From Craspedostauros australis (Eukaryota > Bacillariophyta > Bacillariophyceae > Mastogloiales > Achnanthaceae), in the NCBI GenBank assembly GCA_026770025.1, contig JAMXDE010000006.1:2610001-2674000 (forward strand): 64,000 nucleotides of DNA, read 5' to 3'. The notes beneath the pieces are model-generated. The model did no database searches. It was not told the origin of the DNA and saw only the letters and a program-made list of their open reading frames with translations. Made by a program: the position numbers and the translations under genes. Shown here one piece after another: positions 2,032-52,058 of the stretch (position 1 is the stretch's first letter; each line of letters begins with the position of its first letter).

Positions 2032-2706
2032 ATGGCGCCACGCTCCCTTTACGATATCATCGAAATCGATAGCAACAACAACATCATCCGCATTCCCGAC
2101 AGGCAGCAGCACCAAGATGATGACTGCTGCTCCACCGTGACGACAGCACCAGCAGGCAAGCAGCAACAGGATGGCCTCACCTCAGCTCCGGCCTGTCCAC
2201 CAGCATCTACGCCAAGCCCGAACCTTCGCAAGAGGCAGAAGACCACAAAGTGCGTCACCTTCGCTCCACGCACCCGCTCGCGAAGAACCATCCGCCGATG
2301 CGATTACACGGACGAAGAGAGGAGCAACACTTGGATCACAAAGGACGAGATGGCGGAGATCCGATCCGACGCGGTGCGCGTCGTCCGTCTTATGAACAAG
2401 GACAAGGCGATCAACGGCGACACCCGCAGAGGGTTGGAATGTCGCACACGCAGGGAGTCAGAGCACCGCCAGGCCGTGATCACCCATGCCCGACAGATGG
2501 TGTTCGATGCACAGGAATCCCACCGCGACGAAGGGACCATCGCAGCTGCTTGCATCAAGGCGTCCGCAAATTGGGTCAAGCACGCCATCCGCGTGGGTGA
2601 GAGGGATGCGAGGTCAGCTGCCCGACTGGTCGTTCCACCGGTCGAGCATGACGCCAGTGATTCTGAGGCGTCGTCATCATCGGATGGAAGCTCCATCTCC
2701 ACCTAG
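2032..2706 (+). CDS. diatom orphan-family protein, member 1 (VTFAP/RGLExRT)
   Basis: A 224-aa protein starting MAPRS, the same start as member 3 at 51516, which is why I prefer 2032 over the longer open frame beginning at 1801. The N-terminus is variable and N/Q rich. A basic KRQKTTK patch precedes the conserved block VTFAPRTRSRRTIRRCDYT (about residues 74-92), then EE..TW.T..E...IR, a helical stretch, RGLECRT, and an RQA..HARQ..F.AQ helix. The tail is Ser/Asp rich. The conserved block resembles a large uncharacterised protein family that I know from diatom genomes, in which a Tyr-x-x-Glu-Glu segment and RGLExRT recur. No enzyme motif is visible; the basic, highly helical composition would fit a nuclear or nucleic-acid-associated protein, but that is inference. 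Two paralogues occur at 38281 and 51516. Confidence 0.75.
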   Translation: MAPRSLYDIIEIDSNNNIIRIPDRQQHQDDDCCSTVTTAPAGKQQQDGLTSAPACPPASTPSPNLRKRQKTTKCVTFAPRTRSRRTIRRCDYTDEERSNTWITKDEMAEIRSDAVRVVRLMNKDKAINGDTRRGLECRTRRESEHRQAVITHARQMVFDAQESHRDEGTIAAACIKASANWVKHAIRVGERDARSAARLVVPPVEHDASDSEASSSSDGSSIST

Positions 2707-3420
2707 AGAGATCGGCACACCACACTTTCTGTCCTGGCACACGAACCATCGGCACCAACAGTTTTGACAGTCTGATACCAACATACCAAATATAGAGCTA
2801 ATACAACACAATAGAGTAAAACAAACGAAGCAACAACGTCTTCAAGATGCATACGCTCCAGCTTGACTGCGATGCGAGTGCATGTCTATCCTGGAGAAAG
2901 TGCTCTGCTCTGCCCCAGTCCTAGTCTACAGTCGTGGCTGCGGTTGTGCTGGTATGTACGTCACCTGCAGCAACAAGACTGAACTCTGCCGGTGTTGGTG
3001 CCCGTTCGTGCGCCGTATGCGGACTCTGATTTCCGTCATGCATGTGCATGTTCCCGTTCTGTCTCTCAATCGCACACTGGTCGCTGTCTCTCTCTCTCTC
3101 GCGTGGGGTTTGAACGGTTACGGCGAAACGGTGGATGGTGATGTCAACCAAAAGAGGAGGCGAGGAGAATCATGGACCTTGCGTGTTGAGCACAGGTTGA
3201 CGATGACTCGCGCCTCGAATGTCATGGCGGGGAGGTGACGGAGTCGGCGATGTTTCATCAATACAATTACTCTATGTTTGGTGCCAAACTCGATGGCAAG
3301 AATGGATGCCGCCGCCCGAGTTGACGCGATGCGGCGGTGTGGCTAAATGTTGTTGTCGGTTGCTGGTCCACGCAGCAGTTTGGACAACCACGACGCCAGC
3401 AATCAGCAGCGAAATACGAC

Positions 3421-3466
3421 CTGCACTCAATGTAAAACGGTGTCGCGATAGCACTAGTTGTGGAGT
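3421..3466 (+). repeat. 46-bp dispersed repeat, copy A
   Basis: Matches the reverse complement of 12849-12894 at 45 of 46 bases by eye, starting CTGCACTCAATGTAAAACGG. Flanking sequence on both sides differs, so this is a short isolated shared block. Confidence 0.8.
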
Positions 3467-5350
3467 GTTTTTTTGAGTTTTACTCGTGATGAGTCGTGAT
3501 AAAGTAGACTAAAATAGAGCACACCCAAAACCATCCAAACAACTGCTTATGATGTTATATCTCAACAACGCACCATCTAAAATTAAAACTAGACAGTGCA
3601 TTCGGACGCTTGGCTATCGCTTATTCTGAATATCGAAGTTAAATTTGTATGAACTTTATTTTTAATGTCGTTTTGGCTTGCTGTCAGTCAGATGGTGGGT
3701 GGCAAAAATTCTCGATGGCACCATGCTGCCCTCCCTTCAGCACCCATGATCACCATTATCATCCCTGGCATTTTCACAATCTGCGCACCAAATTAGCTCC
3801 GCATACCCCCCATCTGTCCATCCCATGAAGCTTCTCCACGGATAGCCGCATCTCATACTCCAAACTGTCCCTGCACTGAAAAGCAGAAATTTTGAAAACA
3901 CGATTTCGATGCTGATGCCATTCGGATTTGGATCCGTATCTCGTCGATACGATCCTTGCAGCTCCTCCACATGCCCCTCATGCGTTCCCACATTCTATGG
4001 CGACACACTGATGTGTTCAGAATGGGTTGGGAGTTCGTACCTCCAAAGGTACACCTCCATGTGCTGATGTCACCATGGAGTTTTTGCGATACCCAAAAAA
4101 ACCATTTTGTGTGCATCCCACCTTGCAGCCTCTTACAGACCGTATCCGTGGAGAAGGCTCCGCCCTGGTCATCTTGAGTTGATTTCGAACACATCTTGTA
4201 TGGGTGGCTTTGCGATTTGGGTGACTTGCCAATGGCACCCATCACGAGCGAAGTCACGTGGTGTGTCCGCCGCCACCCACCAAAAAACTCTTGCCCTCCA
4301 CTTGTTTCTTGCGGAGGGCACCTTCCAGTCCACCCCCGACCCTCAAACTTCGTGTGCATCTTCATCGTATCCTCTTGGATGTGTCTTGCCCATCAATAGT
4401 CGTTGGAATGGCCTGTGCATTCCAGGCAGAGACCATATCCAACGAGCAGATGTTCCTCTGAATCGTGTCGCTTGCGCGTGGGCCTGCCACGGCCCCAAAT
4501 CAACCACTCCGGCATCACCCTCTCGCTCATCCACCAATCTTTACATGATGGTTCCGCCTATGCGCTCAGATCTTGCACTGGACCGCTGGTTGTGGCAGTG
4601 ACGATGATGCCGTTCGACGGCGCTTGAGGAGTTTTGTTGTGTTTCTCCATTGTCGTGTTGTTGTGTTGTGTTTGGTGTTCTCAAACAGTTTTTGCTGTTG
4701 GGGGCCATGGAGATTAACCACAAATCTACCGAGTGCGCCAACCAATGGGAACACTTTGCGAGTCCCGAATTGCGAATCCATTCCACAACGACACAGCGGA
4801 GGCACAAAATCCTCCTCACAAAGTTGACAGAGGAAACACAGCGCATCTCAAACGAGTTCCTCCTGTTTCTCTGCTGCTTGTAGTCATAGCTTACACAGAA
4901 TGTAGAATGACTGTGACCTTCCCACAAAGGAAAGAGTGGATGGTACAAGGCACCTTGTGACCATCCTCCTGTGTTGTCCATGCCGTTCTGTGGTGCGCTG
5001 CGCTGTGCTGCGCGTCAATGACTGGTGATGCGCTGTGCTGTGCTGTGCTGTGCTGTGCTGTTCTCCTTGTGTGCCTGGTGTGCGTCATGACCAGCCAATC
5101 TTGTACAATCAGCTTGCAACCTCTATTGGCACACAGCTAGTATTCACCATGAGTTCCCTTGTTGTTAGACCATGTGTGCTGAATCAATCCAATCGTTGTT
5201 CGAGTCTTGAGTCCTTTGTGTCAATCACACTTCGATTCGAAAGATCCAAGAAAACGACTCGAAAGAATTCGGAAAATGTGATGCGGGTTTCAGACCCAAG
5301 ACAAAATTAGGAAGATGATCCAAGAGGATCAAAGAGACTCTATTAGACCT

Positions 5351-5378
5351 CCAAACATGTGTCATAGCACATGTTTGG
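5351..5378. repeat. perfect 11-bp stem hairpin upstream of transposase
   Basis: CCAAACATGTG and CACATGTTTGG are separated by a 6-base loop, about 270 bp before the transposase start codon. It could be a subterminal element of the transposon or a regulatory hairpin. No matching copy was found downstream of the ORF. Confidence 0.7.
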
Positions 5379-5646
5379 ACACAGATACACTAATTAGCAG
5401 GAGTAACCAGCAGTTTGGCATGGTTACAACACGATGGACAATGGTGAATAGCACCATTAGTGGGGCCAAGAAGTAGAAAACAGGAAGATGATGAGCACTT
5501 ATTGATGAGCTCATAATCTCAACAAACTTCACTTTGTAAACCATCACTTCAAACAAGCACACACAATAACACAGTTCTATCAACCTTCACCCACATTGGA
5601 CGTAGTTGTATCATCCTGCAACCACTGAACTCTTCACGTTGCAAGC

Positions 5647-9262: not shown

Positions 9263-9663
9263 GCAAGTGCACTCGTATGAACGTCTGGACAGAGCGGTTG
9301 AGACTGCAGTCAGGTTGTGTGGTTCATCTTCGGATATGCCCCCTTGAAGTCATGGGCAAAGGTACCATATCATACTATACTAGCACATGGAAGTACCAGA
9401 ATGCACAACTGGCAAGGCGCGGCGCCGCACAGGATGCAAGCGATTGTTACACGACCGTATTGTAACGTGTGAAGATGTACTCTTAATTTGTTATCTTGAT
9501 GACGTTTCCGGATCACATCGATACGTGGCGATGCAATGTGATCGAGATATCTTCTCATTGTTGGCCTTTCTGTCCTCCGTCTGTTCTTCAGTGTTTGTGT
9601 GCCAGCATGTGTTCGTGCGAGTACACACGCACATGTGCGTGCGGCAGGGAAGTGGAATTCTCT
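9229..9663. other. intergenic between two minus-strand gene relics
   Basis: No supported gene. It separates the GNAT-like fragment from the end of the methyltransferase relic and shows no clear coding signal for either. Confidence 0.4.
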
Positions 9664-20557: not shown

Positions 20558-23003
20558 ATGAAGGCAATCAAACATGTTAGAATCGCAGACGACAAAGCCG
20601 ACGACGTTGAGATGATGGACGAGCAAGGACAAGCTGTGCAGACAGCAGCTCCAAAGCCGCCTCCCAAGCCAAATCCGAGAGCAATCGAAGAAGAGGCGAT
20701 GGAGAAAAGAGGGGAAATAGCGACGACGTGGAAAGACCCGAACACTGCGCGGTGGAAGAAGCTTCATGACACCATCATTCAACAAGCCAAAGCCTTTCGG
20801 CCAGACGAGACGTATGGAGAAGAGGACAGAGCACTGCATAACCAGACGAAGAAGACCCTGGTCATGAAAGCGAGGTGGGAGAAAAGCGACACATCAATGG
20901 TGTCGGCGCACATGCCAACCATAAGCGAGATGACAGGCTTTTTTTCAGACGGTGATGGACGGGCGCACAACCAAGTTGGGGAAAACAAAAGTGACTTCGG
21001 ATGATCCGGCACGAGTTGCCATCAAACAACTCGTGGCAGACCTGTCTCTCACAAATCCCATCCGATGCTTTGCAGACGCCCTCAAGCCCGGCAACAAGAC
21101 CATGGCAGCTAATCAGATGACCATTCTATGGGCAGCGGCAACGAACTACATGGGCTGCCAATACATGGACGAGCAAGCTCCGCCGGAAGTCGATTCTGAC
21201 AACGAGAAGACAAAGGTGGACAGTGATGACGAAAGTTATGATCTGGAAGCCCTCATGACGAAGAAGCCTCTGAAGCAAGCCAACCTCACAGCCTACACAA
21301 CAGCAACAAGAATCACATCACCAGCCCCGCGGGACGCAGCAGGTAACCTCAAAGCTGCACGAGCTCCAACCACCAAAGAGAGTCAAACACGTGGCAACAA
21401 CGACGAAGGCGAAGGTTGGACCATCTTGCAGAAGAAACCTGTCCCACAGATGTCAAGTCCCAAGCGAAGATACTACGAGCGGTTCGAAATGAGATTGAAG
21501 ATTCCCAAAGGATCCAAAACGCCGGTCAGAGACTTCCAGGAGCGCTTTCGATTGTGGTATGAAGAAGCTCTGGGGATGGACAAAAGCTTGATCATCAGCC
21601 CTTGGTACAAGAAGAACAAAGCCAAAGGCTGCATAGTCACGGCGGATGACATTCCCGCAGCATGGAAAGATCTTCGGTACTTCATTGGTAGAGCCAACCC
21701 AACGTCAAAGAGCGAGGATGTATATCTCCAGGTGCTCCTATCATCGAACATGGACATGCAAATGTTCACGAGCTGGAACACGGAGCTCGAGGGCGCCTAT
21801 CTTGAAGGTGAATACTCATACATTCAAGATCTCAAGGATGCAGAACACACAACGGAGATTGGATTCATGGCGTACTCAGGAAACTTCACCAAACCAAAAC
21901 AGGCTCTCGCGATCATCAATCGGCTGCTGGAAGGCAAACGCGCGAAACTCAAAGTCGGAGGAAGGGTGAAGTACATGGGGAAGGTGTCAGAAGAAGTGAA
22001 GGAGCAACATCTTCAACTAGGCGGAAGTTGGTACAACGCCCCGTGGATGGCCCTGCATCTTCATGCAGATGTCAAAGATGCTCGAAGGGCCTCCAAACTA
22101 TTGGGAAAGATCTTCAATACAAAAGAAGGCGATCAAGGTGGACTCAACTACAGGTATGTCCCAAAGCCAGGGACATCAGTGATGGGGGCAAAGACAGCCG
22201 CGAAGGTGCAGGCGATGACCCGCAAGCATCAAAGCTACGTCCGCCGGCTCAAGTACGAGCAGCTCAAGGGCGACTTCGCACTGGACGTGAAAGACCCAGA
22301 GACCCAGACAATCACGCTTCGGGAATTCCTCGCCAACCAAACCATTGACGGATGTCCAATGATCCACGACGTCAGCACAACACACATGTCGGACGGGAAG
22401 GAGGACGCAATCCACATCGTTGCATTCGAAGAGCGATATGCACAAGCGGTGGGATTGATCCACACCATCGGGATCAGATGCTCCTCGGAGATCAACGAGT
22501 CCACCAACAAGTGGTTTTCTGAAGACATCGTGGCCATGAGCAGCAACATGATCAAAGACACAAACGGAGAATACGTGGACGTAGAGACCGAAGAAGAGAT
22601 GGACTTTCTCTTGGATGAAGGATTCGGCAATGTAGTCATCGAAGGAATCAACATCATGGAAGCGGACGACGAAGCACCAAAGCGCAAGAAGGCACGACTG
22701 GAAGACGAAAGCTACAAGACCTTTGGAACGGAGTATGGGAAATCAGAAGCATCATCTAGATACACAATTCCAGAGTCACAAACAGCAGCAGATGAGAGAG
22801 AAGCGATCGAAGCAGAACTGGAGGAAGCCATGCGAATGGCCAGAGAAGCTCAGGAATTGGAGGCGAGTCGTGTTCGAGTGCAAGAACAAAAGAACACGAT
22901 AGCCAGTCAGGAAACCATCATCGCGGCCTTGCGCGCCCAACTCGCGGCGTCCGAAGTCCAGCCACCCGCTCCAAGCAAAGGCGGGGGCGAGGACCAAGAA
23001 TAA
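20558..23003 (+). CDS. LINE ORF1 protein with one frame change
   Basis: Frame A runs from ATG 20558 (MKAIKHVRIADDK) to 21004. Frame B, shifted by +1, is open through 23003. Homology to the second element's ORF1 continues from A into B around a run of Ts at about 20939-20945, so this is either a one-base indel or a frameshift site. The joined product would be about 815 aa. The N-terminal part is acidic and helical. The central part has the conserved blocks VADLS.T.P, a GYLE-like E..IGFMAYSGNFTKPKQALAIIN stretch, KVGGRVKYMGK and WMALHLHADVKDARR, all recognisable in the 30-35 kb copy. The C-terminus is a coiled coil with Leu/Ala heptads (about the last 70 residues). No CCHC knuckle or RRM is evident to me. 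LINE ORF1 proteins normally bind element RNA; that role is inferred from position only. Confidence 0.7.
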
Positions 23004-23121
23004 TGACAGGCTGGGGGCAGGCGAAGCATCGTCAACCACCCCCGCAAGCCTAACAGATGCAACCCCGGAGGAAAGGCGCCGAGAAGGGCCGGACCTCCTC
23101 GACAAGGGCTGGGGAGACTCT

Positions 23122-26100
23122 ATGTTCACCAAAGGCGGCACTATGATACGAATAGCCGCTCTGAACGTGGGATGTCTCCAGGCTGAGTCGAAACACTGGA
23201 AAAACGATGACCTGTGGCAATGGGTCAAGCAGCAGAAGATCGACGTTGCTCTCCTCTCAGAAATAGGAGTCAATTGGTCCAAGATCGGACGAATGAATTC
23301 ATGGAAATCAAGGACTAAGAAGCACGTCTACACGGAACGACACTCTCTGTCGTATAACGAGAGAGAACAGCTGGGCAGCCTGAGACAGTGGGGCGGCACA
23401 GCCTGTACCATGACGGGAAATATCACAGGAAGGTACAAAAGCAGGGCCAATGATCCGCGTAAGCTCGGCAGATGGGCAAGCATGGCGATCAGAGGTAAAC
23501 GCGATACGACTATCAGATTCGTCAGCGTGTACATTCCAAATAAAGGAGGACAAAGCGCGGGAACAGTCCATAACCAGCAGGCCTCCTGGCTAGAGTCGCA
23601 GGGTATACACACACCACCCATTTCGCAACTGATTCAAGATCTCGAGGAGTCGATTCGACAGTGGAAGGAAGCAGAAGAAACAGTGATAGTGGGCGGCGAC
23701 ATCAACATGCCGGTGAATCGTTCTCAGATGGCCAACATGATGGCGAGGCTACACATGAAAGAAGCGATCCTCAGCCGACATCCGACGGGCCCAGGAGTGT
23801 CTACCAACGTAAGAGCAAGCACAGACAGGGTCATCGATGGCATCTGGGTGCCGGCGTCTCTACAAATCGTGCGCTCAGGATACAGTGAATTTGGTCCCTG
23901 GGATCATCGCACAGCATGGATAGAGGTAGCCCAAGACTCGGTCTTTGGCACAACGAGTCGGCCCACCAGCAAATTCGAAGGCAGAAGAGTGCGTCTGAAC
24001 AGGCCCATCACGGTCAAGCGGTACCAGACAGAAGTCAGAAAACAATACAGGCGGGTGAACATGCAGAGACGGGTTGAGAGTCTAAGGGAGGAGATCGAAT
24101 CATCAAAAGCGCTCACTCCGGGCCAAGTGGAACGAATGGAATCCATCGACAGCGACCGCACGCACATCATGTTGGCAGCCGAGAAGAAAGCCAGGACTAT
24201 ACACATGGGAAAGGTGCCATTCTCTCCGGAAGTCAAAAAGAGAGCCATGGAGAAGCAGTTCTGGAACTTGGCGTGGAAGCGACGTGGAGGCACGAAAGTG
24301 AGTTCCCGTTGGTATGAAAGAGCAAAAAAGCAGGCAGGTATCTCAACCCGCACAGCCACTCTCAGTAAAGAGGATCTGGACAAGAAACGAAAGAGAGCGC
24401 ATGAAAAATGGAAGAAGGCAAAAAAGGACGCGCAGAAACATCGGGCCACTTTCCTGCAACAACGAGCAGACGAGGAAGCCAAAGCGGGCAATATATCCGC
24501 GGAGTCCGCTCTCGTCTCCATACAGAAAAGAGAAGAAGTAGTGGAAACCTTCCGCGCCATAAGACAGGTGATGGGGGACTACGATTCCAACAGCAAGGTG
24601 ACGATGGTTATCGCCAATAACGAAAGTGGCGAAGAGGAAGTGTACGACAAAGAACAAACAGTCATCACCCAATGCATGAAAGCGAACGAGGCAAAATACA
24701 GGCAAGCGTACGTGACCCCGCTCCAGCATCCCACCTTCGCTCGAGACATACGGAACATGAGTATACAATCCGCCCAGCGCAGGCATCATCGCAAGCTCGG
24801 CCAGCACGACAACCATCTTCTCGATGAACTCGGCAAAACTGGCGCAATACCATGGAAGGCCGAAGATCTTCACATCACCACGTCCAGCCACCAGCAACTG
24901 TGGTCCAAAGCGAGGGAGAAGACTACGTCGGGTCCATCCGGCCTCCATTTTGGGCTGTGGAAGGCGAATGCCAAGTGTGATGATCTCGCAAACATCGACG
25001 CGATCATGAGAGAGGTGTCTCTGAGGACGGGGTATAATTTGAAGCGATGGCTGAAGTGCACCGATGTCACCTTACTAAAGGAGCCAGGAAATTTCCGAGT
25101 TTCCAGGTTCCGCACCATCAGCTTGGTGGAAGGAGATTTCAACGCTAATCTCAAGTGGATCGGTAAGATCATGATGAAACACGCGGAGACACACCAGATG
25201 CTGCCGGAAGAACAGTACGGCAGCCGCAAGCAGCGAAGCGCGGCAGAAGTCAGTCTCAACAACAGAATGACGGACGACATCATCAGGATCACGGCGGCCA
25301 CCAGCTGCATATGCTCAAACGATGCGAAAAGCTGTTACGACAGAATGGCGCATGTTCCCCTGGAACTCAGCATGCGGCGACTGGGTGTGCCCGAAGTCGT
25401 GGGGGAAAGTGTAACATCGGCAGTGCAGTCCATGCAGCACCATGTGCTGACGGGTTTTGGAAGGTCCACAAGAACTTACCCTCACCGTGGATCCAAATTG
25501 CAAGGCCTACTACAAGGACTAGGCATATCCCCGGCAGGTTGGGTGGCAATGAGTTCTCCGATCATGGCAGCAATGACAGCAAGAGGATTCGGATTCAAGG
25601 CCGTCAGTCCAACCAAGCAAGTGTCCACAAAGCTGGTATGTTTCTCGTTTGTGGATGACACGGATCTGATCCACTCGGTACAGTCGGACGTCAATGATCC
25701 AGAAGAGTGCGTCAGGGAGATCCAACAAGTGGTGGACGCGTGGGAAGGGATGCTGCGTGCTACAGGCGGAGCTCTCGAACCCCGGAAGAGTTACTGGTAC
25801 CTTATGTCATTCAAGTGGGAAGGCGCCGGATGGAAATACAAAACGATCGAAGAGCAACCAGGCGACATCAACATCCGCCAGCCAGACAGCCAGGACAGGT
25901 CCACGCTACTGCGACTTCGAGTCGACCAAGCTAGGAAGGCGCTTGGAGTCATGGTCAGGCACGATGGAGTACAGAAGGACAATGAGGAGTACTACGCAAG
26001 CAAGGCCGAGCAGTGGGCAGACAAGATGAGGAGAGGACGCATGTTACGAACGCACGCGTGGATCGCCATGAAATCGACAATATGGAAGGCTCTAGAATAT

Positions 26101-28650
26101 CCATTGACAAGTGCGACGTTCACGAGAGAAGCCACCGAACGCATCATGCGACCAGTCCTTATGGCAGCCCTGCCGGCGGCCGGAGTTCAACGAAATGTGT
26201 CTCGCCAACTGGTGTTCGGGCCAAGTGAAGGTCTGGGACTTGGAGTGGAACATCTGTACTACGTGCAGATCACAAGACATCTTGAGAGTGTGGCGCGCCA
26301 TTGGCAGAGGTCAACGCTGACAGGAAAGCTCATGCACACGTTGGTGGAGCTTCTTACGATACAGGTTGGAGTTCCAGACGTGTTCCAACAGGATCCAAGC
26401 CAGTGGGGACACTTGGCCGAGGACTCTTGGATGAAGTCGTTGTGGATGGAGACAAGCGGGGTGGGCATCACAGTGCAGTGGGAGAGCAGGATACTGCATG
26501 CCCCCAGACAAAATGATGCGCCAATCATGGTGCGCGTTAAAGCCCTAGCGCTCGGTCCGCAGCAGGAAAAGATCATCAACTTGTGTCGGATCGCCAAGAA
26601 AGTGTTCTGGCTGTCGGATATAGTGTCAGTGGGCGGCGATCATCTATTGCCATCGGCCGACCAGCCTGGCGACGTCCCACTACGGGCCACATGTCTCAAT
26701 TGGCCTCCAGTGGGGAAGTTGAGTTCAGCCAGCTGGAAAGCGTGGCAACAGGTCATTCGGAGGATTTTCCCAGCGTCCAGAACCGGAAGCGTTCAACTGG
26801 AGCAGCACCTTGGGCAGTGGCGAGGATTCACATCGCAGCAGCCATTAGTATTTTGGGACCCAGCGAGTGACAGACTGCACGACAAGTCGCAGCCCTCGAA
26901 GGTGTTCGCCAGAATACCTCGGCGCAGTAGGCGCAGACTCTACGCAGAAATCGAAGGAGAAGAGTGTAATCCCGCAAAGCTCGTGGACGGTTACCGCCAT
27001 TCGGGAAAGATCGTAGTGACAGGAGCAAGCGAGGGAATGACCGCAGAACCCAGAAGTCCGACCTCTGTGGAGATGGCCATTCAAGCCATGCAGCGTACGC
27101 AATCTTGGTCAGTCCAACAGTACGAAATAGCGGGGTCCTGGGACACGGTGGCCCAATCCATAAGGCAGGGGACTGCGGTGGCGTGCAGCGACGGCTCAGT
27201 AGCAGACGGCAGCGGAGCCTCAGGGGCGGTCATACTGGCGGAATACGGCGGTGAGACAGCGCAACTGATCATCGCAAATCTCGCCCCAGCAACAAACGGG
27301 GTCATGCAGTCGCACAGGGCGGAACTCTCGGGACTCTACGGAGTTCTGACGATGCTGGCAGTGATCTGTGAAGTGCATGGCGTTGATGGCGGCAGCGCTG
27401 AGATCGGTTGCGACAATGTTGGTGCTCTGAAAGCCCTGGACAAAGAGTGGCGGTTGTCGCCTTCCTCCACAGATGCAGACCTGCTGAGGGCGGTTCGCAA
27501 CAGCTGCGAAGACCTACCAATCACGATTCGAGGGAGACATGTGAAAGGGCATCAAGACAACAAAACGGAGTGGCATAGACTGGACAGATGGGCCCGACTG
27601 AACGTGATCGCAGACAAGGTGGCAGGAGCGGCGAGAAGCTCTATGCTTGGCACAACAGCCTACGACGGCCATATACGCGGGGAGCGAGTCTCGTTCATGG
27701 CAACGGCAAAACTGACGCAAGTAAACTACTCGGCGGTGGCCGGAGAGCGCACTCAACAGGAGGCTGTCAACGTCCTTATTTCTCGGCGGGCGATCGATGA
27801 CGCATCCCACGTGGCGTGGCCGACCATAGGCCGCGTGCTTAAGCAGATCGGCCAGCCGAAGAGGGTGCTCATCACCAAGCTGATCACTGGTGAGGCTCCT
27901 CTGGGAAAGCGCATGAAACGCTGGGGAATGCGATTGTCGGACCAATGTCCGGGATGCGCAGCAAGTGAGGACGCCAAGCATTTCTGGCAGTGTCCCAGCG
28001 GTGGCAGGCGCGAAGTGGCTCATCGTCTTCTGAGCGATATTCGAAGGTGGCTTCAGAGATATCCAACCCATCCTGCGGTGGCGGCAAGTATTTCTGTCAT
28101 CCTTCGCAGCCAGTTCGACAACTCAGCTTATCTCCAAATAGCCAGCCCGGGGAGCATGCTCCATGAGGCTATTCAACATCAGCTCGCAGTGGGGCACCAG
28201 TCCCTCCGGAAGGGGCTAATCGTCACTCACTGGGAAAGCATGCAGGAGGAGTACTTGCGGCAGCAGCAATCGCGAAGGTCAGCAGCGAAGTGGGCAAGAC
28301 AACTGGTGCGGCGTATCTGGCACATCGCGTGGGAGCAGTGGACTGTGCGCAACGACGAACTTTTTCACAGTCAAGACTCGGCCGAGGCCGAAATGATCCA
28401 AGCTCTGGAAAATCGAGCGGCATCACTTCGGCTTCGCCTCGAGGAAGATCAGGCAGCCAATCGACGCATTCTGTTGTCTCAGCCGGCGGAAGGGGCTACC
28501 ACAGCACAGGTCGCGGTGTGGGTGGAGCAAGCCGCCATGATACTGCGTGAACCGGCCGCCTCTGGCGCCCTGCTCACGTGGCTACGTTATCGCAGGCAAG
28601 CTCATCCAGACCCTGGCTACGGCCCTGGTGGCTCCACGGAGGGTGGATAG
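23122..28650 (+). CDS. LINE ORF2: APE endonuclease, reverse transcriptase, RNase H
   Basis: 1,842 aa from the ATG at 23122. The same frame is open back to 22903, overlapping the end of ORF1 by about 100 bp in the +1 frame, so initiation may be by re-initiation or frameshift. Endonuclease at about residues 9-270: N15, E47, GGDIN with D193/N195, and WDH with D261/H262. Reverse transcriptase at about 620-900: motif A D734 in CSNDAKSCYD, and motif C FVDD with D845/D846 instead of YADD. RNase H at about 1350-1510: D1357, E1401, D1431 and D1498 with a VKGHQD segment. A CPGC...H....C zinc knuckle lies near 1608. All catalytic residues that I can align are present, so the enzyme looks competent. It would nick target DNA and prime cDNA synthesis from the nick. 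The RT-to-RNase H spacing is long (about 450 aa). Confidence 0.95.
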   Translation: MFTKGGTMIRIAALNVGCLQAESKHWKNDDLWQWVKQQKIDVALLSEIGVNWSKIGRMNSWKSRTKKHVYTERHSLSYNEREQLGSLRQWGGTACTMTGNITGRYKSRANDPRKLGRWASMAIRGKRDTTIRFVSVYIPNKGGQSAGTVHNQQASWLESQGIHTPPISQLIQDLEESIRQWKEAEETVIVGGDINMPVNRSQMANMMARLHMKEAILSRHPTGPGVSTNVRASTDRVIDGIWVPASLQIVRSGYSEFGPWDHRTAWIEVAQDSVFGTTSRPTSKFEGRRVRLNRPITVKRYQTEVRKQYRRVNMQRRVESLREEIESSKALTPGQVERMESIDSDRTHIMLAAEKKARTIHMGKVPFSPEVKKRAMEKQFWNLAWKRRGGTKVSSRWYERAKKQAGISTRTATLSKEDLDKKRKRAHEKWKKAKKDAQKHRATFLQQRADEEAKAGNISAESALVSIQKREEVVETFRAIRQVMGDYDSNSKVTMVIANNESGEEEVYDKEQTVITQCMKANEAKYRQAYVTPLQHPTFARDIRNMSIQSAQRRHHRKLGQHDNHLLDELGKTGAIPWKAEDLHITTSSHQQLWSKAREKTTSGPSGLHFGLWKANAKCDDLANIDAIMREVSLRTGYNLKRWLKCTDVTLLKEPGNFRVSRFRTISLVEGDFNANLKWIGKIMMKHAETHQMLPEEQYGSRKQRSAAEVSLNNRMTDDIIRITAATSCICSNDAKSCYDRMAHVPLELSMRRLGVPEVVGESVTSAVQSMQHHVLTGFGRSTRTYPHRGSKLQGLLQGLGISPAGWVAMSSPIMAAMTARGFGFKAVSPTKQVSTKLVCFSFVDDTDLIHSVQSDVNDPEECVREIQQVVDAWEGMLRATGGALEPRKSYWYLMSFKWEGAGWKYKTIEEQPGDINIRQPDSQDRSTLLRLRVDQARKALGVMVRHDGVQKDNEEYYASKAEQWADKMRRGRMLRTHAWIAMKSTIWKALEYPLTSATFTREATERIMRPVLMAALPAAGVQRNVSRQLVFGPSEGLGLGVEHLYYVQITRHLESVARHWQRSTLTGKLMHTLVELLTIQVGVPDVFQQDPSQWGHLAEDSWMKSLWMETSGVGITVQWESRILHAPRQNDAPIMVRVKALALGPQQEKIINLCRIAKKVFWLSDIVSVGGDHLLPSADQPGDVPLRATCLNWPPVGKLSSASWKAWQQVIRRIFPASRTGSVQLEQHLGQWRGFTSQQPLVFWDPASDRLHDKSQPSKVFARIPRRSRRRLYAEIEGEECNPAKLVDGYRHSGKIVVTGASEGMTAEPRSPTSVEMAIQAMQRTQSWSVQQYEIAGSWDTVAQSIRQGTAVACSDGSVADGSGASGAVILAEYGGETAQLIIANLAPATNGVMQSHRAELSGLYGVLTMLAVICEVHGVDGGSAEIGCDNVGALKALDKEWRLSPSSTDADLLRAVRNSCEDLPITIRGRHVKGHQDNKTEWHRLDRWARLNVIADKVAGAARSSMLGTTAYDGHIRGERVSFMATAKLTQVNYSAVAGERTQQEAVNVLISRRAIDDASHVAWPTIGRVLKQIGQPKRVLITKLITGEAPLGKRMKRWGMRLSDQCPGCAASEDAKHFWQCPSGGRREVAHRLLSDIRRWLQRYPTHPAVAASISVILRSQFDNSAYLQIASPGSMLHEAIQHQLAVGHQSLRKGLIVTHWESMQEEYLRQQQSRRSAAKWARQLVRRIWHIAWEQWTVRNDELFHSQDSAEAEMIQALENRAASLRLRLEEDQAANRRILLSQPAEGATTAQVAVWVEQAAMILREPAASGALLTWLRYRRQAHPDPGYGPGGSTEGG

Positions 28651-28936: not shown

Positions 28937-29008
28937 TGTCCGCACTGGGAATCGAACCCAGCCTTTCACAACCACAATGTGAGGTACTAGCCACTATACG
29001 ATGCAGAC
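28937..29008 (-). tRNA. tRNA-His (anticodon GTG)
   Basis: A 72-base minus-strand cloverleaf. The acceptor arm GTCTGCA pairs with TGCGGAC (one G-U), with discriminator A. The D arm is GTAT/GTAC. The anticodon stem is TCACA/TGTGA around loop TTGTGGT, giving anticodon GTG. There is a 4-base variable loop, and the T arm is CTGGG TTCGATT CCCAG. A GGTTCGATTCC-like B box and a TAGTGG-containing A box are in place. No intron. The CCA end is not encoded, as expected for a eukaryotic nuclear gene, and a TTTTT terminator follows. It looks functional. Confidence 0.95.
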
Positions 29009-35355: not shown

Positions 35356-38280
35356 TATCCTTTGGTATGCAAAATATAATTTTGTTGAACACTTAGGTTT
35401 GTTTGTAAATACAAAGTCCTGCTGAACCTGCTTTGCTCCCATGGACATGGGACGCCATGGCCATCTACTAAGCCATTGGCATGGTGTGGAAAGAGACTGG
35501 TGGCGGTAGTGTTGTTTTCTTGTTGTTTATGGTGTTGTGATGTGAGTGTTTGCAGGTTCACTGACACTGAAACAAGAAATTGAGAGGAGAGCAGATGAAC
35601 AACAGCCAGAAGCCAACAATGACTGTTCGCGACGACCAGCAGAGAGGAGGTCCAAACACACAGGCAGGGAATAGACCTGAAGCAAGGATGAGGCTGTAAT
35701 AGAGTAGGCGTATGGAGGGAAGGCAGTGTGTGCTGATTGGGACGTGGACGAAGCTCAATGTCCTGGGCCATGAGCGGTGGGGGAACCGAGAACAAGGCAG
35801 TGTGACAGTCTTGGTGGGGGGTCAGGATTTGGATTACACACCAACCCACAACTCTGGATCTCGACAACTGATCCACGGCCCAGATGAAGCAGCAACTTCA
35901 GCATGCCTACTGCCACTGCGCAATCCTCGACATTGTTTCGCAACAACCCGCCTCACCCACGCGAAATGTGAGTGTGTCGACGAAGGACACGACTGGACAT
36001 TGGCCAAAGCACGACTGAGAATTTCGAATCCAAGTTGCCCCTCTACGTTCGCATGCCTCACGTGTCTAGCCGTAGATTAATGCGAAAAATATAAACTTTT
36101 TAACTACAAGGCCCAGAAGCTTGTAACTTCACCCATATACTATCTACAACATAATAGGACTATTTAAGAAAAAATATTAAAAATCCGCATTTGTATACTA
36201 TCGTATCCTGAATGGGGTCATACGTTTACGTTTACGTTCACGTTCACGTTCATGTTCGCGTTGACTTTCATCGACCATCACGAGACTCTTTGTGACAAAA
36301 CAGCAGAACCCCTCATCCATGTTGTAGTGTCGTAGTTTTGTTGTGCGCACTGGTACATTTACAACAAGGAGAAGCACTCTTTGGACTACATGCATGAATA
36401 CTGTACGAGTAGAGACGACGACGGACTACGATGTGGTTTCAACTGCTCGACGCATGACACCCCTGATCTGGAGTGAACTGTTACGACCTCCGCGGCAAAG
36501 AGACAGCGACACAAAACACAACGGATCGCAGAACATGACACTCCCAAACTTTCGTCGTGATTCGTTCTGATCTGGAATGATCTTGCCTGCGAGCTTTGAG
36601 TGCATGCGATGTCGCACATACCAGCGCAGAATAGAGCATCGTCGTCTACTCTGCGCAAGTTCGTGTCAAGATCAGACACCCAACAGATACCTAAGGACGA
36701 ATCACTTTTACGAGTATCACCTCCAGAATAGTGCCCACAACTACAGTGCAAACTTGCTTCAATCCCGAGGGTGGATTCGGAGATGGACACGACCTCGGCG
36801 AACCACTGCGTTTCAGGTTTCGATTCTGAAGTCCTCTTGTTCACCAACGAAGATTGTCGTTGGGCATGGAGCACGAGCTACTCGTCGAGTACATGCAAGT
36901 ACATTGGTGTTTGCGAATAGAGTCTGGCAAGACTAGATCGTGGTACCTTGGCGAGGATCAGCCTGAGAATCAATCTGCAGCAGCACCACGAGCATCAGCA
37001 TCCGAAGGAGAGGTCAGGATAGGGTCAAGTCGTGAGATGTATTATACTTCCTAATCGTACGCGTGATAGGAGCACCTCCTGCGTTGCCCATTCGCAGCGC
37101 GGGTTGGATGCATCAACAGTGGCCAGGTTGGGAAGTACAAACAGCGCCCCCCTTGAACTCTACTCCACTCTACTCTACTTCACTTGACTCGACTCGACTC
37201 GACTCGACTCGTTTCCTGTTTCGGTTGTGTCCATCTCCAACCATTTCTGACTCTTTGGTTTGCCGCTGCCCAAGATGTTGGTGTTTTGGTTGCAATAGCT
37301 CCTTTGGTTTCATCGTCCGTGACGGTGTGCCCAGAGTGATACTCGTTGAAAGCATCCAGCACGACCCAACCAAAGCCAATCCAATGTGCTTCCCTGTCTG
37401 CATTCTGTCATGACGACCTCCTTCCTTCCAGTCTGTTGGTGGGAGAGTGTCTTGTCTGTGAAGGGGAGTTTTTGGCGGAGGTTGTGAGATGTTGTGCCAT
37501 CATGGCAGCACCGCTGTGCCCAAATTGTGAGGTTGGATGTGGAGAGCTCGTGAAACAGTCGGCATATTTGAAATTATATATGCCGATGAGCGTTCTCCGC
37601 GTTTGTGCGTTTCCGAAGGGTCACATAACGAACGGCATCCAACTTCATTCACGCGAGCCCAAGCTGCTTGTTGAGGTGACAACGAAGCCAGATGTCATTC
37701 ACATATTATCCTTCAACTGCGTTGACACATAATCCGAAACAGAAACATCCATGAAAGCGTGTTGGGGCAACGCTTCGCTCACACAAAGCGAGACGGCGCA
37801 GCAGAGTTCCTGCTGGGCAATTCAAACAGAAATGCACAAACTGCGCGATGGGCAGAATCTACGAATAGGCATCTACCTGGGCAAGCTTCTTCCGCATCGC
37901 CACGAACCGGCGACACTCACATTCACACACGGAACTTCACTGAGTGCGTTATGACTACATGATTCGCCGCATTCATCGCATGTATCACCTACACCGAAGA
38001 CAGTGCCGATTTCTCCACATCGCAACATGAAACAAAGAACCAACACGAGAAACGACTAACCGCAAAGCTTCACCCACATGAGCGAAAATGGAAACTTGTT
38101 TGTGGCAAACGCACGAACGCAAACTGTCAACAGTTCGTCACTGCTTCGTGCATTTCTTCATCTTGCACTATCTCCTCTCACAATTCACAAGTCAGCACGA
38201 ACAAAAACTCAAACCACCACACAACAAACAACACCAGCCTACCACCGTCCCAACAAACGACAACAACAACGACAATCAAC
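35356..38280. other. 2.9-kb intergenic region, no supported gene
   Basis: Contains TTTACG/TTCACG direct repeats near 36222-36256, AT-rich sequence at 36080-36190 and a CTACTC/GACTC tandem tract at 37157-37210. The last 250 bp are CAA-rich leader of the following gene. No frame shows a recognisable domain. Confidence 0.45.
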
Positions 38281-39021
38281 ATGATGCCACTTTCTTCTTA
38301 CAACAAGATCGAAGCCGATAGCAGCAGCACCATCAACAACAACGCTACAACCAGCATTTCCAAAAAGAAGGGGCAGAAGCATCAGCGCCGCGAAGATGGC
38401 TGTTCGTCTGCCATGATGACAACATCTACAACAGGCAAGCCTCAACAGGATGGAGTCATCTCCGCTCCGGCCTGCCCACCACCACCGGCAACATTGGCGC
38501 CCACGCCCAACCCAAGCCTTCGCAAGAAGCAGAAGACGACGAAGTGCGTCACTTTCGCCCCACGCACCCGCGCGCGAAGAACCATCCGTCGCTGCGACTA
38601 CACCGACGAGGAGAAGGTCAACACTTGGACCACGAAGGACGAGATGAACGAGATCCGATCCGACGCTGTCCGCGTCGTTCGAATCATGAACAAGGACAAG
38701 GTCGTGAAGGGCGATACACGCAGAGGGCTGGAATGCCGCACCCGGAAGGAGGTCGAACGTCGCCAGGCAATGATCACGCAAGCTAGGAAGGCGGTGTTCG
38801 ACATGCAAGAGTCCCAGCGCGACGCCGACGAGTGCGCGCGAGACGAAGTTGCCATCGCGGCTGCGTGCATGGAGGCTTCCGCAAAGAGCGTCAAGCTCGC
38901 CATCCGCATGGGAGAGAAGGACGCCAAGTCTGTTGCCCGTGTGACCACCCGATCAAGCCAGCGCAACACCAACGACTCTGAGACATCCTCCTCATCGGAT
39001 GGAAGCTCCGTCTCTGCCTAA
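38281..39021 (+). CDS. diatom orphan-family protein, member 2
   Basis: A 246-aa intronless protein starting MMPLSSYNKIEAD. The variable N-terminus (Ser/Asn/Pro rich, with KKKGQKHQRR) is followed by KKQKTTKCVTFAPRTRARR, TIRRCDYTDEEKVNTW, EIRSDAVRVVRIMNKDK, DTRRGLECRTRKEVERRQA and an Ala/Lys helical segment, ending in the same acidic/Ser tail (SETSSSSDGSSVS) as member 1. From CVTFAP to the end it is close to member 1 (2032-2706) and more distant from member 3 (51516-52058), so members 1 and 2 are the recent pair. Its 5' leader is CAA/ACA rich like that of member 1. Function unknown; no catalytic signature, signal peptide or membrane segment. Confidence 0.85.
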   Translation: MMPLSSYNKIEADSSSTINNNATTSISKKKGQKHQRREDGCSSAMMTTSTTGKPQQDGVISAPACPPPPATLAPTPNPSLRKKQKTTKCVTFAPRTRARRTIRRCDYTDEEKVNTWTTKDEMNEIRSDAVRVVRIMNKDKVVKGDTRRGLECRTRKEVERRQAMITQARKAVFDMQESQRDADECARDEVAIAAACMEASAKSVKLAIRMGEKDAKSVARVTTRSSQRNTNDSETSSSSDGSSVSA

Positions 39022-39496: not shown

Positions 39497-39533
<37 letters not shown>

Positions 39534-45391: not shown

Positions 45392-48300
45392 ATGGACGTC
45401 GAACACAGCAGCACGGAGATGGACCATGGGATCTCCAAGGCCCCATCGCTGTACGAACGGCCATTCTTCTACCGCCAAACGCGGAAGAAGGGAAAGATCC
45501 TGAAGAACGTATCCGAGAGATACCTGCGCGACGATCTGGGCCTGGGGTACTACTACGAATCGAGCAACGACGAGAACCTGCGCGTGAAGGAGGCCAGGAT
45601 CGGCAGGCCGCGGCTGATCCGCGATGCGCCGCACCTGCTGTCCATGCTGCGTCCCTGCAAGCCCAACGCTCTCGTGGTCTGCGACACCAACGTCCTCATC
45701 CACAACCTCGATCTGCTGGAGATGACGGACACGGTCATGCCCAACGTGGTCTTCGTGCAGACCGCCCTGCTCGAGCTGCGATCCAACAGCAGCGCGGCCT
45801 ACGAGCGCGTGGCGAGGATGATGCGGGAGGTGGAGAACAACCCTCGCTTCTGCGTCTTCCTCGCCGATCAGCATCATGTGGAAACGGCGCACGTTGCCGA
45901 GGCCGATAGGACCAGCATCAACGACGAGAACGATGCCCGCATTCGTCATGTGGCCGCGTTGTTTGCGGAAAACCTCACCGGCAGCGACGTGCGCGTCATC
46001 CTCCTGACGGACGACAAAGGAAGCCGGGAGAAGGCCGACGGGGCCCTGTACGAGGCCAGGAGCGTGCGCAGCTGGGCGCAAGAGCTCGAGAAGCACCACC
46101 CCGATCTGTCGTTGCTCGATACCGTCGCCAACTTCGAAGCGCAGGTGGGCAGCACCGGCGAGGCGCGCAAGAACTGCTTTCCCCGCCACCTGCCTGCTTC
46201 CGACATTTCGGACGGTGTCAAATCGGGCACGCTGTACCGCGCCGTCTTTCGTTCGCTCGACGACACCAACGGCCGCATCACCATCCGCAAGGGCGACGAG
46301 CGCGTCGTGGTCTCCATCCGGGGCAGAATGGATCGCAACCGCGCCCTCGATGGTGATGTGGTGGCCGTGGCGCTGCACTCGCCCGATCAGTGGCTGTCGT
46401 CGCCAACGGCCAAGTCCAAAGCCAAATCGAATAGTGCATCATCCACAAAAGCTCCCTTGCAGGCTGGCATCGCGCCCGACACGGCCGAGCCCACCCAGGC
46501 CGAGCTTTCCAACGTCTCGGATGTCGCGCAGACATCGCAGGACGGCAAGGCCATGTGTCCCACGGGAAAGATCGCGGGCATCATGCGGCGCAACTTCGGC
46601 AGCTACTGCGGCTCCATCTGCAGCGGCAGCGAAAAGAATGGCAAGATCTCACCCGAACGTCGCAAGATCGTAGAGACGCACGAACGCCAGCATCCCGACG
46701 GTACCACGACCTGCGTCTTCTTCCCCGTCGACAAGAAGATACCGACCATCCTCATCCGCACATCCCAGAAGCAGCGTCTCGTCGGCCAACGCATCCTCGT
46801 CACGATCGACTCGTGGCCCGCCGACTCGCACTACCCGCTGGGCCATTACACCAAGCTGCTGGGCCCCATCGGATCCAAGGACGTCGAGACGCAGGTGCTG
46901 CTGCTGCAGCATGCCATCCCCCACGAACCATTCTCGGCGGCCGTCCTGGCATGCCTGCCACCAGCCGATTTCAAGTTCGTGCCCACGCCGGATCGCACGG
47001 ACCTGCGTCACATCCCCGTCATGTCCATCGACCCGCCGGGCTGCAAGGATATTGACGACGCCCTGCACTGCACGCAGCTCGACAATGGCAACTACTCGCT
47101 GGGCGTGCACATTGCCGACGTCACGCATTACGTCAAGCCGGGCACGGCCATCGATCTGGAGGCGGCCAGCAGATCGACGTCGACGTACCTGGTCAATCGG
47201 CGTTTGGATATGCTGCCGGCCCTTCTGACGACCGACTTGTGCAGTTTGAAGGGCAACGTCGACAGGTGAGTGATGGTGCCTCGTCGTGTCCTATGCTACA
47301 TCGCAGGTGTCCTGGAATCATGCGTCGTCCTGTTTCGTTTGTAGGTTCATATGAGCATTGCGTGGATGCAGCTTTGTTCTACTGTGGGTTCTACTCTGTT
47401 CCATAGTATGCTACTGCAGCGTGCTTTATTGCATCTCAAGATCCTTTTTGCCTTCAATAACCCAACTCACACCACGCCGTGGCGCCGTTCTATCCATTCA
47501 CTTTAACTATTCCTTTATTCCTCTGGTAACATGCGCTTCTACCTCCAACGCACGTATGTATCTGTACATGCCATTTGCATCATCGTCCACCGCAGATACG
47601 CCTTTTCCGTGATATGGGAGGTGACACCAGATGCGCAGATCGTCGATGTGGAATTCAAGAAATCCATCATCCATTCTGTTGCGGCGCTGACGTATCAGCA
47701 AGCGCAGAGCATGATCGATCAGCCAGAGAAGGATGACGGTCTGAAGGAATCATCTGTCAAGCGCCTGGCCAAACTGGCGAGGCAGTTTCGCAAACGAAGG
47801 ATCGACGCCGGTGCGCTGACGTTGGCATCGCCGGAGGTCAAGTTTGTGCTGGACAGCGAATCCCTCAACCCGACCGACGTGCAATCGTACCAGCTGCTCG
47901 AGGCCAACGCGCTGGTGGAGGAATTCATGCTGCTCGCCAACGTGACGGTGGCAAAGAAGATTTTACGATCGTACCCGACTCTATCGGTCCTGCGACGCCA
48001 CCCGTCGCCGAACAGAGCGATGTTCCAAACCTTGATCAGCAAGGCACGTTCCCGCGGATTCGAGATCAAGATCGAAGATTCAAAGCAGCTCGCCGACTCA
48101 CTGGACGACGCGGTGATCGAGTCTGAACCGTACTTCAACAAGCTCCTCCGGATCTTGTCAACTCGGTGCATGTCGCCGGCGCAGTACTTTTGCTCGGGAG
48201 AGTACCGCGCCACGGATTGGCATCATTACGGCCTTGCGGCGCCTGTGTACACTCACTTCACATCCCCTATCCGCAGGTAAGTCATGCACTCTTTGTTTGC

Positions 48301-49162: not shown

Positions 49163-51515
49163 TAGGAACATTTGAGTAACGCTCAGCCAACAGTTGAGCA
49201 ACACTGGAGCAAAAAAGGAATATAATCCTATATCACGTATCAGCAGTTGGATTCCTAACACAGCAAACATTCTCTCTAGAGTGTTCGCATGCCATACCCC
49301 ATCCGCTGGCGGAGAGGAGGCTGGGTGGATGCAACAGCATCTTTGTTGTATTGCAATAGTTGCCTGCCGCTGTGATTGTGGTCAGCGTGTCATTGGGGCG
49401 GAGACAGTATTTGTGGAAGTTGCTGCTTCCCCAACGTCTCCACAAGAGCCTATCACGTACGAATCTTAGAGATTTGTCACCGACGCATGGACGGATTTCT
49501 ATCTGCACTGGAACCAACAAGACAAAGGCGAACTTGTCTGAAGTCGACACCACACGCACACTCGGCCACTTCTTTGGGATGAGAAGAAGGGGACAGAATC
49601 GGAAGAACGGCGTCCTTTTTAGGAAGAGTCCAATTTCGCCTTCCATTGGATTGGTGCGTACGGCCATACGCGTACAGCGCAAGAAGATGTGCATCGAGTA
49701 GAGTAGGGCAGACCAGAGCGGAGCAGGGGTGACAACTCTGGAGCATTTCGAACTATCCACGGCTTCGACCATCTTTATCATTGCTGCCAGTTGGGCTGTT
49801 CATTGTTGCCGCTGTTGTTGTCACCACAGCCATCATCATCACACAGAGAAACTGCGCGGCTACTTTTAGATGCCAGATCGGAGGCAACGACAAGCCGAAA
49901 TAAACCAAAAGGTTGCGAGTGGTATGAACGCGGATCTGCGCGGTACCTGCGAAGAGACCATGGGCGATTTGGGCATTGGACGCAATGCGTTTCAAGATTG
50001 TCGTCGTCGTCGTCGAGATATGCATCGTCGCTCTTGATTGCGTCTGTGGATGAACAAAAGCTCTCAACGACATCCGATGACGCTCATCGAATTGTCCCAA
50101 TGATATTCACATACAAGCCAACGCCACTACTATCCATGCGCACACTCTATGTCGGTAGCAGTTGTCCAACCTACGTGGACGTAAAGGTATTCCGCCGTTG
50201 AAGTCTCAAACGAATGCGATCTCATTTCGACTTACGTACGAGTACGGGCATGTCGTCATCTCACTCCATACTCGTATAATTCGTATCCAAGTAGAGACGG
50301 AACAAGAAAGGAATAGAATTGGTCACAGTGCCACCAACACCAACAGCAATAACAGCAACAACAACAACAACAGCGGTAGCAACAACCACAGTGACAGTAA
50401 CCGAGCAGTGGCAACAAAGTCACATAGAGCACGGTCGCGATTGTGACAGTAATGACGGTAGCGACATCCATACACGTACTATACATTCGATTTGGATGCC
50501 GATTACGATTGTTTTACTCTACGATCTCCTACTCTGCTTTCGTTCGGGCACCTGGGTGGACACGCAAAGCGCATTCCTTGGTGCTTGTGAGAGAAAGTCA
50601 AGTTGTGACGCTATCGCGTTTCGTGTCCACATCTGCGCGAAATTGAACCAAAATGTGAGGCTGGAAGGAAACCAAATGCCTGAAAAAGTTGTGGATGGCT
50701 GTTGTTTGCAAATACGTGAGCGGACTTCGCCGATGTTTCTCCGATGCATCATATGTGTCGGGCATGAATTATACTTCCTCGGCTAAGTTTGTGAACAATA
50801 AAATCCTCAGTTGCCTTCTTCACAGAACAGACGGATGTTCTTCTGTATGGAAAGGTACCAATATTGTTGCTCGCTGGCACTTCAAAATGGCAACATTCCT
50901 GCCCCACGCCATAAGTGTAGTGATAAGCCTAGTATTCATGTTTCACAAATAACACCTATTGGATTGGATTGATAATTTACACAAGGTTGAGATCTGTGTT
51001 CGAGGCCGCCACCACAGCCCCAAATGATGGCGGAAGACACCAAAAAGGAACAATACGTCCCTCGCCGAGGTCATGAACACGGCGAATAGTGCAGAGAGCA
51101 CGGCAACTATTTTCATCCCAGGCAGCCATTCACGCCTGACCACGCACGATCAGACAACCAGTGTGCGACTTGTAGGAGCTCCGCATTGGACATGCAACAA
51201 GTGCCAGCAAAAGGCCAAACGGAGACAAATAGTCCGCCCAAAAGTCAACCAATCCCGGTGCTGACTGATGATTTGTGCGCCCACAACGCCAACCAAGGAA
51301 CATGGCTGGTGAAAGCGGATGAAAGGTGGAGCACCAACACGACTCTCTGGATGGCGATGAGATGGAGCGCGACACAGGAGAGAACGATCACAACGACTGG
51401 GTGTTTCTGTGATCACATCTGATGGGTGGCCTCACCCAACTCATAAAATCAACTTCCAGAGCAAATACAAAGCCAACCAGCCAACCAACAACAAGATCAA
51501 CAGCAACTATTCAAG
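49163..51515. other. 2.3-kb intergenic region, no supported gene
   Basis: CAA/CAG trinucleotide-type repeats near 50330-50400 and GTCGTC repeats near 49998-50015. A 182-codon minus-strand frame (49233-49781) has no recognisable domain. The last 200 bp are a CCAACCA-rich leader. Confidence 0.45.
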
Positions 51516-52058
51516 ATGGCACCACGATCAAGCATGTACAACTTCGCAGACAACAACCAGCTGCAGCACAGCGGCGACGACTCGTCTACATTCACTGTCA
51601 ACGACAGCTCCAAGCACGTCGTCAGACAGTCACTCGATCGCTGCATCGAACCAGCCAAGCGCCAGGTCACATTCGCCCCAATGACGAGGGCCAAGCGCAC
51701 TCTCCGCCGCACCGACTACAGCAGGGAGGAGATCGAGGCCACCTGGTACACATCCAGGGAGACTGATGCCATCCGTTGCGAAGCCAGAGAGACGCTGCAC
51801 AGCCTCAACCACAACAAGCCACTCAGCGACAACGAGTGCAAGCGCGGGCTGGAACACAGGACGATGCAGAACGGCACCAAACGCCAGGCCGTCATCGATT
51901 ACGCTCGCCAGGTCGTGCTGGATGAGCAGCACCGTCAGTGGAAGGAGGGAACTGGAGTGGACGCTGACTCCATCTCGCACCAGTACACCCTCGTCTCGCG
52001 ACAGGCGCAGGCATCCGCATACAGAACCGGACGTCTCGACCACCGCACTGCCCGGTAA
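51516..52058 (+). CDS. diatom orphan-family protein, member 3
   Basis: 180 aa, starting MAPRSSMYNF like member 1. After a short Ser/Asp N-terminus it has KRQVTFAPMTRAKRTLRRTDYSREEIEATWYT, then IRCEARETLHSLNHNKP, RGLEHRTMQNGTKRQAVIDYARQVVLDEQHRQWKEG and an ISHQYTLVSRQAQASAYRTG segment. The parts YSREEIEATWYT, CKRGLEHRT and VLDEQ.RQ match, as I recall them, the core of a very large diatom protein family better than members 1 and 2 do, so this copy looks ancestral-like and the other two derived. No introns. Function unknown; helical and basic. Confidence 0.85.
   Translation: MAPRSSMYNFADNNQLQHSGDDSSTFTVNDSSKHVVRQSLDRCIEPAKRQVTFAPMTRAKRTLRRTDYSREEIEATWYTSRETDAIRCEARETLHSLNHNKPLSDNECKRGLEHRTMQNGTKRQAVIDYARQVVLDEQHRQWKEGTGVDADSISHQYTLVSRQAQASAYRTGRLDHRTAR

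Follow-up and report, generated by a model that had tools for sequence, protein, structure and literature searches.

The question raised by this locus was what kind of protein is encoded by three paralogous genes that lie dispersed in the genome of the diatom Craspedostauros australis. The genes, which we call family members 1, 2, and 3, are located in a 64,000-nucleotide stretch of DNA (contig JAMXDE010000006.1, positions 2,610,001 to 2,674,000), and we refer to this whole stretch as the window. An earlier, sequence-only reading of the window had placed them in a very large, uncharacterized family typical of diatoms and had proposed a binding role, possibly nuclear, for a charged, helical block that they share. 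Our analysis indicated that a short motif at the edge of this block matched the consensus for docking to protein phosphatase 1 (PP1). We put even weight on the view that members 1 to 3, as local duplicates, belong to a diatom family that comprises roughly a hundred or more candidate PP1 targeting subunits, whose binding to PP1 we infer from sequence.

Family size and selection on the core

The search was carried out in the 74.8-Mb assembly of 90 contigs that contains the window. A query with member 1 matched 39 stretches at E ≤ 0.001 and a query with member 3 matched 67 stretches at E ≤ 0.01, while a family consensus query matched 135 stretches at E ≤ 0.1, including 107 at E ≤ 0.001. Merging over 1 kb reduced the 135 stretches to 124 candidate loci, and 89 readable family open reading frames (ORFs) were obtained from 87 fetched stretches. 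All 20 loci in a check of weak hits (consensus E values of 1.2e-5 to 0.017) matched a pre-built profile at an E value of 2.2e-10 or better, and the best E value among reversed ORFs, which served as the control, was 0.14. As far as checked (E values up to 0.017), the weak consensus hits appeared to be mostly genuine; of the weakest hits, with E values above 0.018, a minority were read. Within 50 kb of each other we counted 47 neighbor pairs, whereas 2,000 random placements averaged 9.8 such pairs and never had more than 20; our count covered all 124 loci, weak hits included. The family is dispersed and partly clustered, with about a hundred or more candidate loci.

Known domains did not account for the family. 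None of the three window proteins matched a Pfam-A family above the curated cut-off, and no Pfam family was matched by more than 2 of 60 cores at E ≤ 0.1. Matches to Dysbindin (7e-5) and GST_C (2e-4), in one core each, were rejected as sporadic (1 of 60 cores); a Pfam scan of 28 N-terminal pieces also yielded sporadic matches only, and sequence searches of the PDB yielded nothing below an E value of 0.2. Of the 89 member ORFs, ten (from a list of 18 longer ones) were scanned for partner domains, and none that was credible was found; one match to Cwc15 (0.005) was below the cut-off. No relatives were found in viral contigs (consensus scan and DNA pattern), and the one DNA-pattern match in a prokaryote collection was judged to be due to chance (profile E value of 0.02). 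Both of these negatives are weak because the DNA pattern recovered only 25 of the 89 known ORFs. No description of the family turned up in our literature searches. Neither of the two outcomes that would have counted against the sequence-only reading came about: relatives were plentiful outside the three window genes, and no credible Pfam or PDB match explained the shared block. The results support a family that is very large and has no known domain.

Many copies, in a dispersed and clustered arrangement that was lineage specific within the collections searched, might also be what is left of a family of domesticated or mobile elements that serves no cellular function. We consider this highly improbable in light of the selection data. 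The ratio of nonsynonymous to synonymous substitutions (dN/dS, NG86 method) in the core was 0.05 to 0.38 in all 11 pairs tested, with dS saturated in the pairs that were most distant. Core dN/dS was below that of the N-terminal flank in 9 of 10 computable pairs (L021/L031 was the exception) and below that of the C-terminal flank in 6 of 8 pairs (the exceptions were L028/L025 and L021/L007), with flanks that may include untranslated bases, as ORFs were read from stop to stop. The family core is under purifying selection, which disfavors mobile element remains. In addition, an in-frame Met was located upstream of the core in 88 of the 89 ORFs, and 66 of the 67 stretches matched by the member 3 query had no internal stop.

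Anatomy of the core and its RVxF-type motif

The unit common to the family was a core of about 128 residues (an iterated profile of 128 columns) in which a linear motif at the N terminus is joined by a linker to a domain predicted to be all helical. Columns 1 to 11 had K or R at 1, V or I at 3, F at 5, and V-x-V/I at 9 to 11. Next came D-Y-T/S-x-x-E (columns 19 to 24), W (29), S/T-x-x-E/D (31 to 34), I-R/K (38 and 39), a variable loop in which insertions reach 80 residues (53 to 61), a near-invariant R-G-L-E (62 to 65), A-V-L-D-E-Q-x-x-Q (85 to 93), I-A-x-x-Y (104 to 108), and A-x-x-x-G/A-x-x-D (119 to 126). The most conserved residues were D, G, F, V, A, Q, R, L, W, and E. Two ORFs, L064 (734-2455) and L076 (2-1717), had a tandem pair of cores with an RVxF-type motif for each of the two, and in L081, L093, and L094 one core was split into two matched stretches with an insertion between them.

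Conservation showed helical periodicity in columns 32 to 52 (p 0.003), 72 to 96 (p 0.002), and 101 to 127 (p below 0.0005); the corresponding values for mean hydrophobicity were p 0.02, p 0.92, and p 0.09. Columns 1 to 14 showed no helical (p 0.94) and no significant strand (p 0.17) periodicity. A structure prediction, a check that the sequence-only reading had suggested, was made for member 3 with AlphaFold2 (AF2). It placed helices at residues 70 to 76, 80 to 97, 105 to 144, and 150 to 170 and coil around residues 49 to 53, but the model was shallow (three window sequences) and of low confidence, with a mean predicted local distance difference test score (pLDDT) of 53.7 and a predicted template modeling score (pTM) of 0.27, which made it too poor a basis for a fold search. 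The RVxF-type motif in this low-confidence model had a pLDDT below 50 and no secondary structure, and helices came after it. The block was charged and, based on periodicity and the AF2 model, helical, as had been claimed; it was not one uniform unit, as its first five residues behaved like a separable linear motif. The large family, the charged helical block, and the purifying selection on the core made the proposed binding role a sensible one.

A basic stretch precedes the core in members 1 (LRKRQKTTK) and 2 (LRKKQKTTK), and this stretch and the charged helical core might point to nuclear regulators that bind DNA or chromatin through a basic N-terminal segment. However, the basic stretch is missing in member 3, the Pfam scans found no DNA-binding family, and in our judgment the most conserved residues are atypical of DNA contact. 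We regard this explanation as improbable.

The first five core columns, which hold the "VTF" block, matched the RVxF consensus for PP1 docking. This consensus has been published as [RK]x0-1[VI]{P}[FW], along with stricter forms that include RVxF-ext (PMC4794898). In the 84 domains for which both columns were present, position -2 was K or R in 71 and position x was never P; column 3 was V or I in 83 of 84, and column 5 was F or W in 84 of 84. For a non-circular test, members were found with a profile restricted to the helical part (columns 26 to 128), and the motif was scored within 60 residues upstream. The loose form was found upstream of 73 of 81 helical domains (4.1 expected from shuffles), a stricter form (RVxF-ext without the leading basic residue and with H permitted as well) was found upstream of 55 (0.65 expected), and RVxF-ext itself was found upstream of 31 (0.06 expected). 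The same three forms were present in 2, 1, and 1 of 65 control pieces covering the 60 residues downstream of the core. Held-out loci L079 to L098 had the loose form in 11 of 12 testable domains (0.87 expected). Random 70-residue pieces from other ORFs of the same DNA contained the loose, stricter, and RVxF-ext forms in 19, 2, and 0 of 428 cases; the shuffles and the downstream pieces are the better controls because the ORFs behind the random pieces are mostly not real genes.

The combination of V or I at column 3 and F or W at column 5 was missing in 11 of 94 core stretches. Four of these were C-terminal pieces of split cores, and one was the L012 core, which is considered below. The other six (five independent, with L027 and L034 being near-duplicates) kept W29 and lacked the aligned N-terminal part. 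All six carried an RVxF-type motif upstream (RVVGF, RNVTF twice, KSVSF twice, and RSVRF), and the distance from F to W was 29 to 54 residues, compared to the usual 24. When the shuffle probabilities were multiplied over the five independent members, the product was 1e-7. Such displacement would be expected of a tethered docking motif and is possible, too, for a strand that sits on a long loop.

Proposed PP1 targeting and what speaks for and against it

We found 29 stretches in the genome that matched PF00149, not all of which are phosphoprotein phosphatase (PPP) enzymes. The sequence LMCSFQ, which we take to be the PP1-specific edge of the RVxF groove, was located 103 and 515 bases after two of these matches, and a backwards control pattern gave 1 match. 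Judged by this sequence, PP1-type phosphatase genes are present in the same genome. From the ordered RVxF, V-x-V, Trp, and helices of the core, together with these PP1-type genes, we infer that the family most likely tethers PP1. Specifically, [KR]-x-[VI]-x-[FW] at the core edge would dock in the RVxF groove of the PP1 catalytic subunit, and the following hydrophobic pair, V-x-V at columns 9 to 11, may add a strand, as phi-phi motifs do. Column 9 was V in 41 of 86 cases and column 11 was V or I in 56 of 86; degenerate phi-phi forms are allowed (PMC10731240). The choice of target or location would fall to the helical domain, with its near-invariant RGLE turn, and to the variable tails. In this way, one phosphatase would obtain many addresses from the many paralogues of the family, and a few catalytic subunits would be redirected through duplication of an adaptor family.

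It is plausible, and we say so tentatively, that a single, previously undescribed helical domain underlies roughly a hundred or more paralogous PP1 targeting subunits in this one diatom, which would make up a lineage-specific holophosphatase repertoire. If true, a large blank family of the diatom genome would acquire a testable biochemical role, and a two-residue change per protein should abolish PP1 binding. A single algal family with some 124 candidate loci would represent a large phosphatase-adaptor expansion, with a role comparable to that of big receptor or F-box families in other organisms. In humans, all PP1 regulatory subunits taken together number up to 200 (PMC4794898).

Several results weighed against PP1 docking. 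The motif expression is short, and about 25% of proteins contain its loose form by chance (PMC4794898). The loose form was absent within 60 residues upstream in 8 of 81 domains, L012 carries KKFQF at the motif position, and no profile match to any PP1 regulator was found in Pfam or the PDB. There was no conserved Arg motif, as R never exceeded 16 of 88 in columns 13 to 28. A SILK motif ([GS]IL[RK]) N-terminal to RVxF was found in exact form in 1 of 89 ORFs (0.66 expected) and in relaxed form in 6 of 89 (5.0 expected), and the idea of a SILK-motif PP1 regulator was rejected for lack of enrichment. Finally, the F-to-W spacing was 24 in 62 of 84 cases, as would also be the case for a strand lying against the domain. 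The literature searches returned no paper linking RVxF and diatoms, and one unrelated paper turned up.

The usual spacing of 24 also speaks for an alternative in which the core is a family-specific helical domain that binds protein or nucleic acid, KxVxF packs against that domain as its N-terminal strand or cap, the likeness to RVxF is coincidental, and PP1 is uninvolved. V3 and F5 were about as conserved as the core residues W29, V86, and A119, the core is charged, and the other PP1 motifs (SILK and Arg) were not found, all of which would agree with this alternative. However, the frequent K or R at position -2, the lack of P at x, and an F that is almost never replaced by L, I, M, or Y are in our judgment unexpected for a buried strand. 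The motif was also kept through long linker insertions, and the low-confidence AF2 model showed no strand at the motif. We consider a packed strand or cap possible but doubtful.

Returning to PP1 targeting, the closest analogy was to the RVxF-phiphi-R-W regulators (Phactr1, PPP1R15A/B, spinophilin, and PNUTS), with which the diatom family appears to share, in this order, the RVxF, a hydrophobic pair, a Trp, and a helix C-terminal to the Trp. In the family, W29 was present in 82 of 90 cases and the F-to-W distance ranged from 17 to 54, so this Trp may instead belong to the helical domain. Phactr1-like regulators carry RVxF, a phi-phi strand, Arg, Trp, and then a helix that reshapes the PP1 groove; in Phactr1 these are LIRF at 519 to 522, EVAD at 527 to 530, R536, W542, and an amphipathic helix within 545 to 565 (PMC7599070). 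PPP1R15B has a similar run from KVTF to W662 (PMC4394352). Unlike these regulators, the diatom family has no Arg motif and no sequence homology to them, its Trp is mostly at F+24 and up to F+54 (F+20 in Phactr1 and F+19 in PPP1R15B), and it has an extra conserved helical domain after the string and about a hundred or more paralogues. The appearance of the consensus had suggested homology to PPP1R15/GADD34, which was rejected, as there was no Pfam or PDB match; the docking-motif analogy was kept.

Lineage-specific Plasmodium PP1 interactors, which came from an RVxF-ext screen, are also protist proteins, many of unknown function, with the same motif; 35 candidates were validated by enzyme-linked immunosorbent assay (ELISA) and two by motif mutation (PMC4794898). 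They are listed as separate proteins, each chosen by its motif, whereas the diatom proteins have both a motif and a domain in common. Like other expanded diatom or species-specific families, for example, those of Seminavis, the family is expanded and partly clustered, but we matched it to no named expanded family, including those described in the available part of the Seminavis paper (PMC7335047).

The three window genes and other features

The three genes are uninterrupted, paralogous ORFs at the positions that the sequence-only reading had assigned to them (Table 1), and all of the motifs quoted there were found in members 1 to 3. Members 1 and 2 were 68% identical over residues 2 to 223 (E value of 7e-78) and have an acidic Ser tail in common, as had been noted. 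Members 1 and 3 were 44% identical over residues 72 to 173 (E value of 4e-17) and have mainly the core in common. The sequence KRQVTF of member 3 matches the strict RVxF-ext consensus. An alternative in-frame ATG is located upstream of member 1 at 1801, and the start at 2032 is supported by an MxPxS start common to members 1 to 3. The genes had been described as dispersed, which is correct; because they form a single clade (local support of 0.918 in a tree built with FastTree from 86 of the 94 core stretches), they are also local duplicates spread over 50 kb.

The CAA-rich leaders that had been reported were borne out as well. The window averaged 3.4 CAA per 150-nt piece (standard deviation of 2.4), with at least 13 CAA in 0.4% of pieces, and the leaders of the eight other long window ORFs with a full 150 nt upstream had 1 to 8 CAA. 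Across the family, the 150 nt before the first Met (86 of the 89 ORFs) had a mean of 9.2 CAA, compared to 4.7 in random pieces from the same loci.

Table 1. Coordinates of the family members, their leaders, and other features of the window
Feature	Position	Strand	Description
Family member 1	2032-2706	+	Predicted uninterrupted ORF, 224 aa; core 2248-2613; RVxF-type motif KCVTF 2248-2262
Family member 2	38281-39021	+	Predicted uninterrupted ORF, 246 aa; core 38542-38928; RVxF-type motif KCVTF 38542-38556
Family member 3	51516-52058	+	Predicted uninterrupted ORF, 180 aa, without acidic tail; core 51660-52046; RVxF-type motif RQVTF 51660-51674
CAA-rich leader, member 1	1882-2031	+	14 CAA per 150 nt
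CAA-rich leader, member 2	38131-38280	+	14 CAA per 150 nt
CAA-rich leader, member 3	51366-51515	+	13 CAA per 150 nt
Two consecutive ORFs	20955-28650	+	682-aa ORF, then 1842-aa ORF with weak Exo_endo_phos match (E 3e-4, below cut-off)
tRNA-His gene	28937-29008	-	GTG anticodon; just downstream of the 1842-aa ORF
Dis3/Rrp44-like nuclease	45392-47269	+	Single ORF; PIN domain, cold-shock domain, and beginning of RNB domain

Among the other features of the window, the two consecutive ORFs are possibly a non-long-terminal-repeat (non-LTR) retrotransposon. An intron may follow the ORF of the Dis3/Rrp44-like nuclease because its frame ends inside the RNB domain (positions 1 to 91 of 326).

Elsewhere in the genome, 88 stretches matched PF03842 (silicon transporter), and light-harvesting protein genes were found too, gene content that by itself marks the source as almost certainly a diatom. 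Thirty-two of the PF03842 stretches covered at least 483 of 513 positions (762 to 831 bits), and 28 of these 32 had no internal stop. The remaining PF03842 stretches included fragments and stop-containing copies of what is a very large silicon-transporter expansion.

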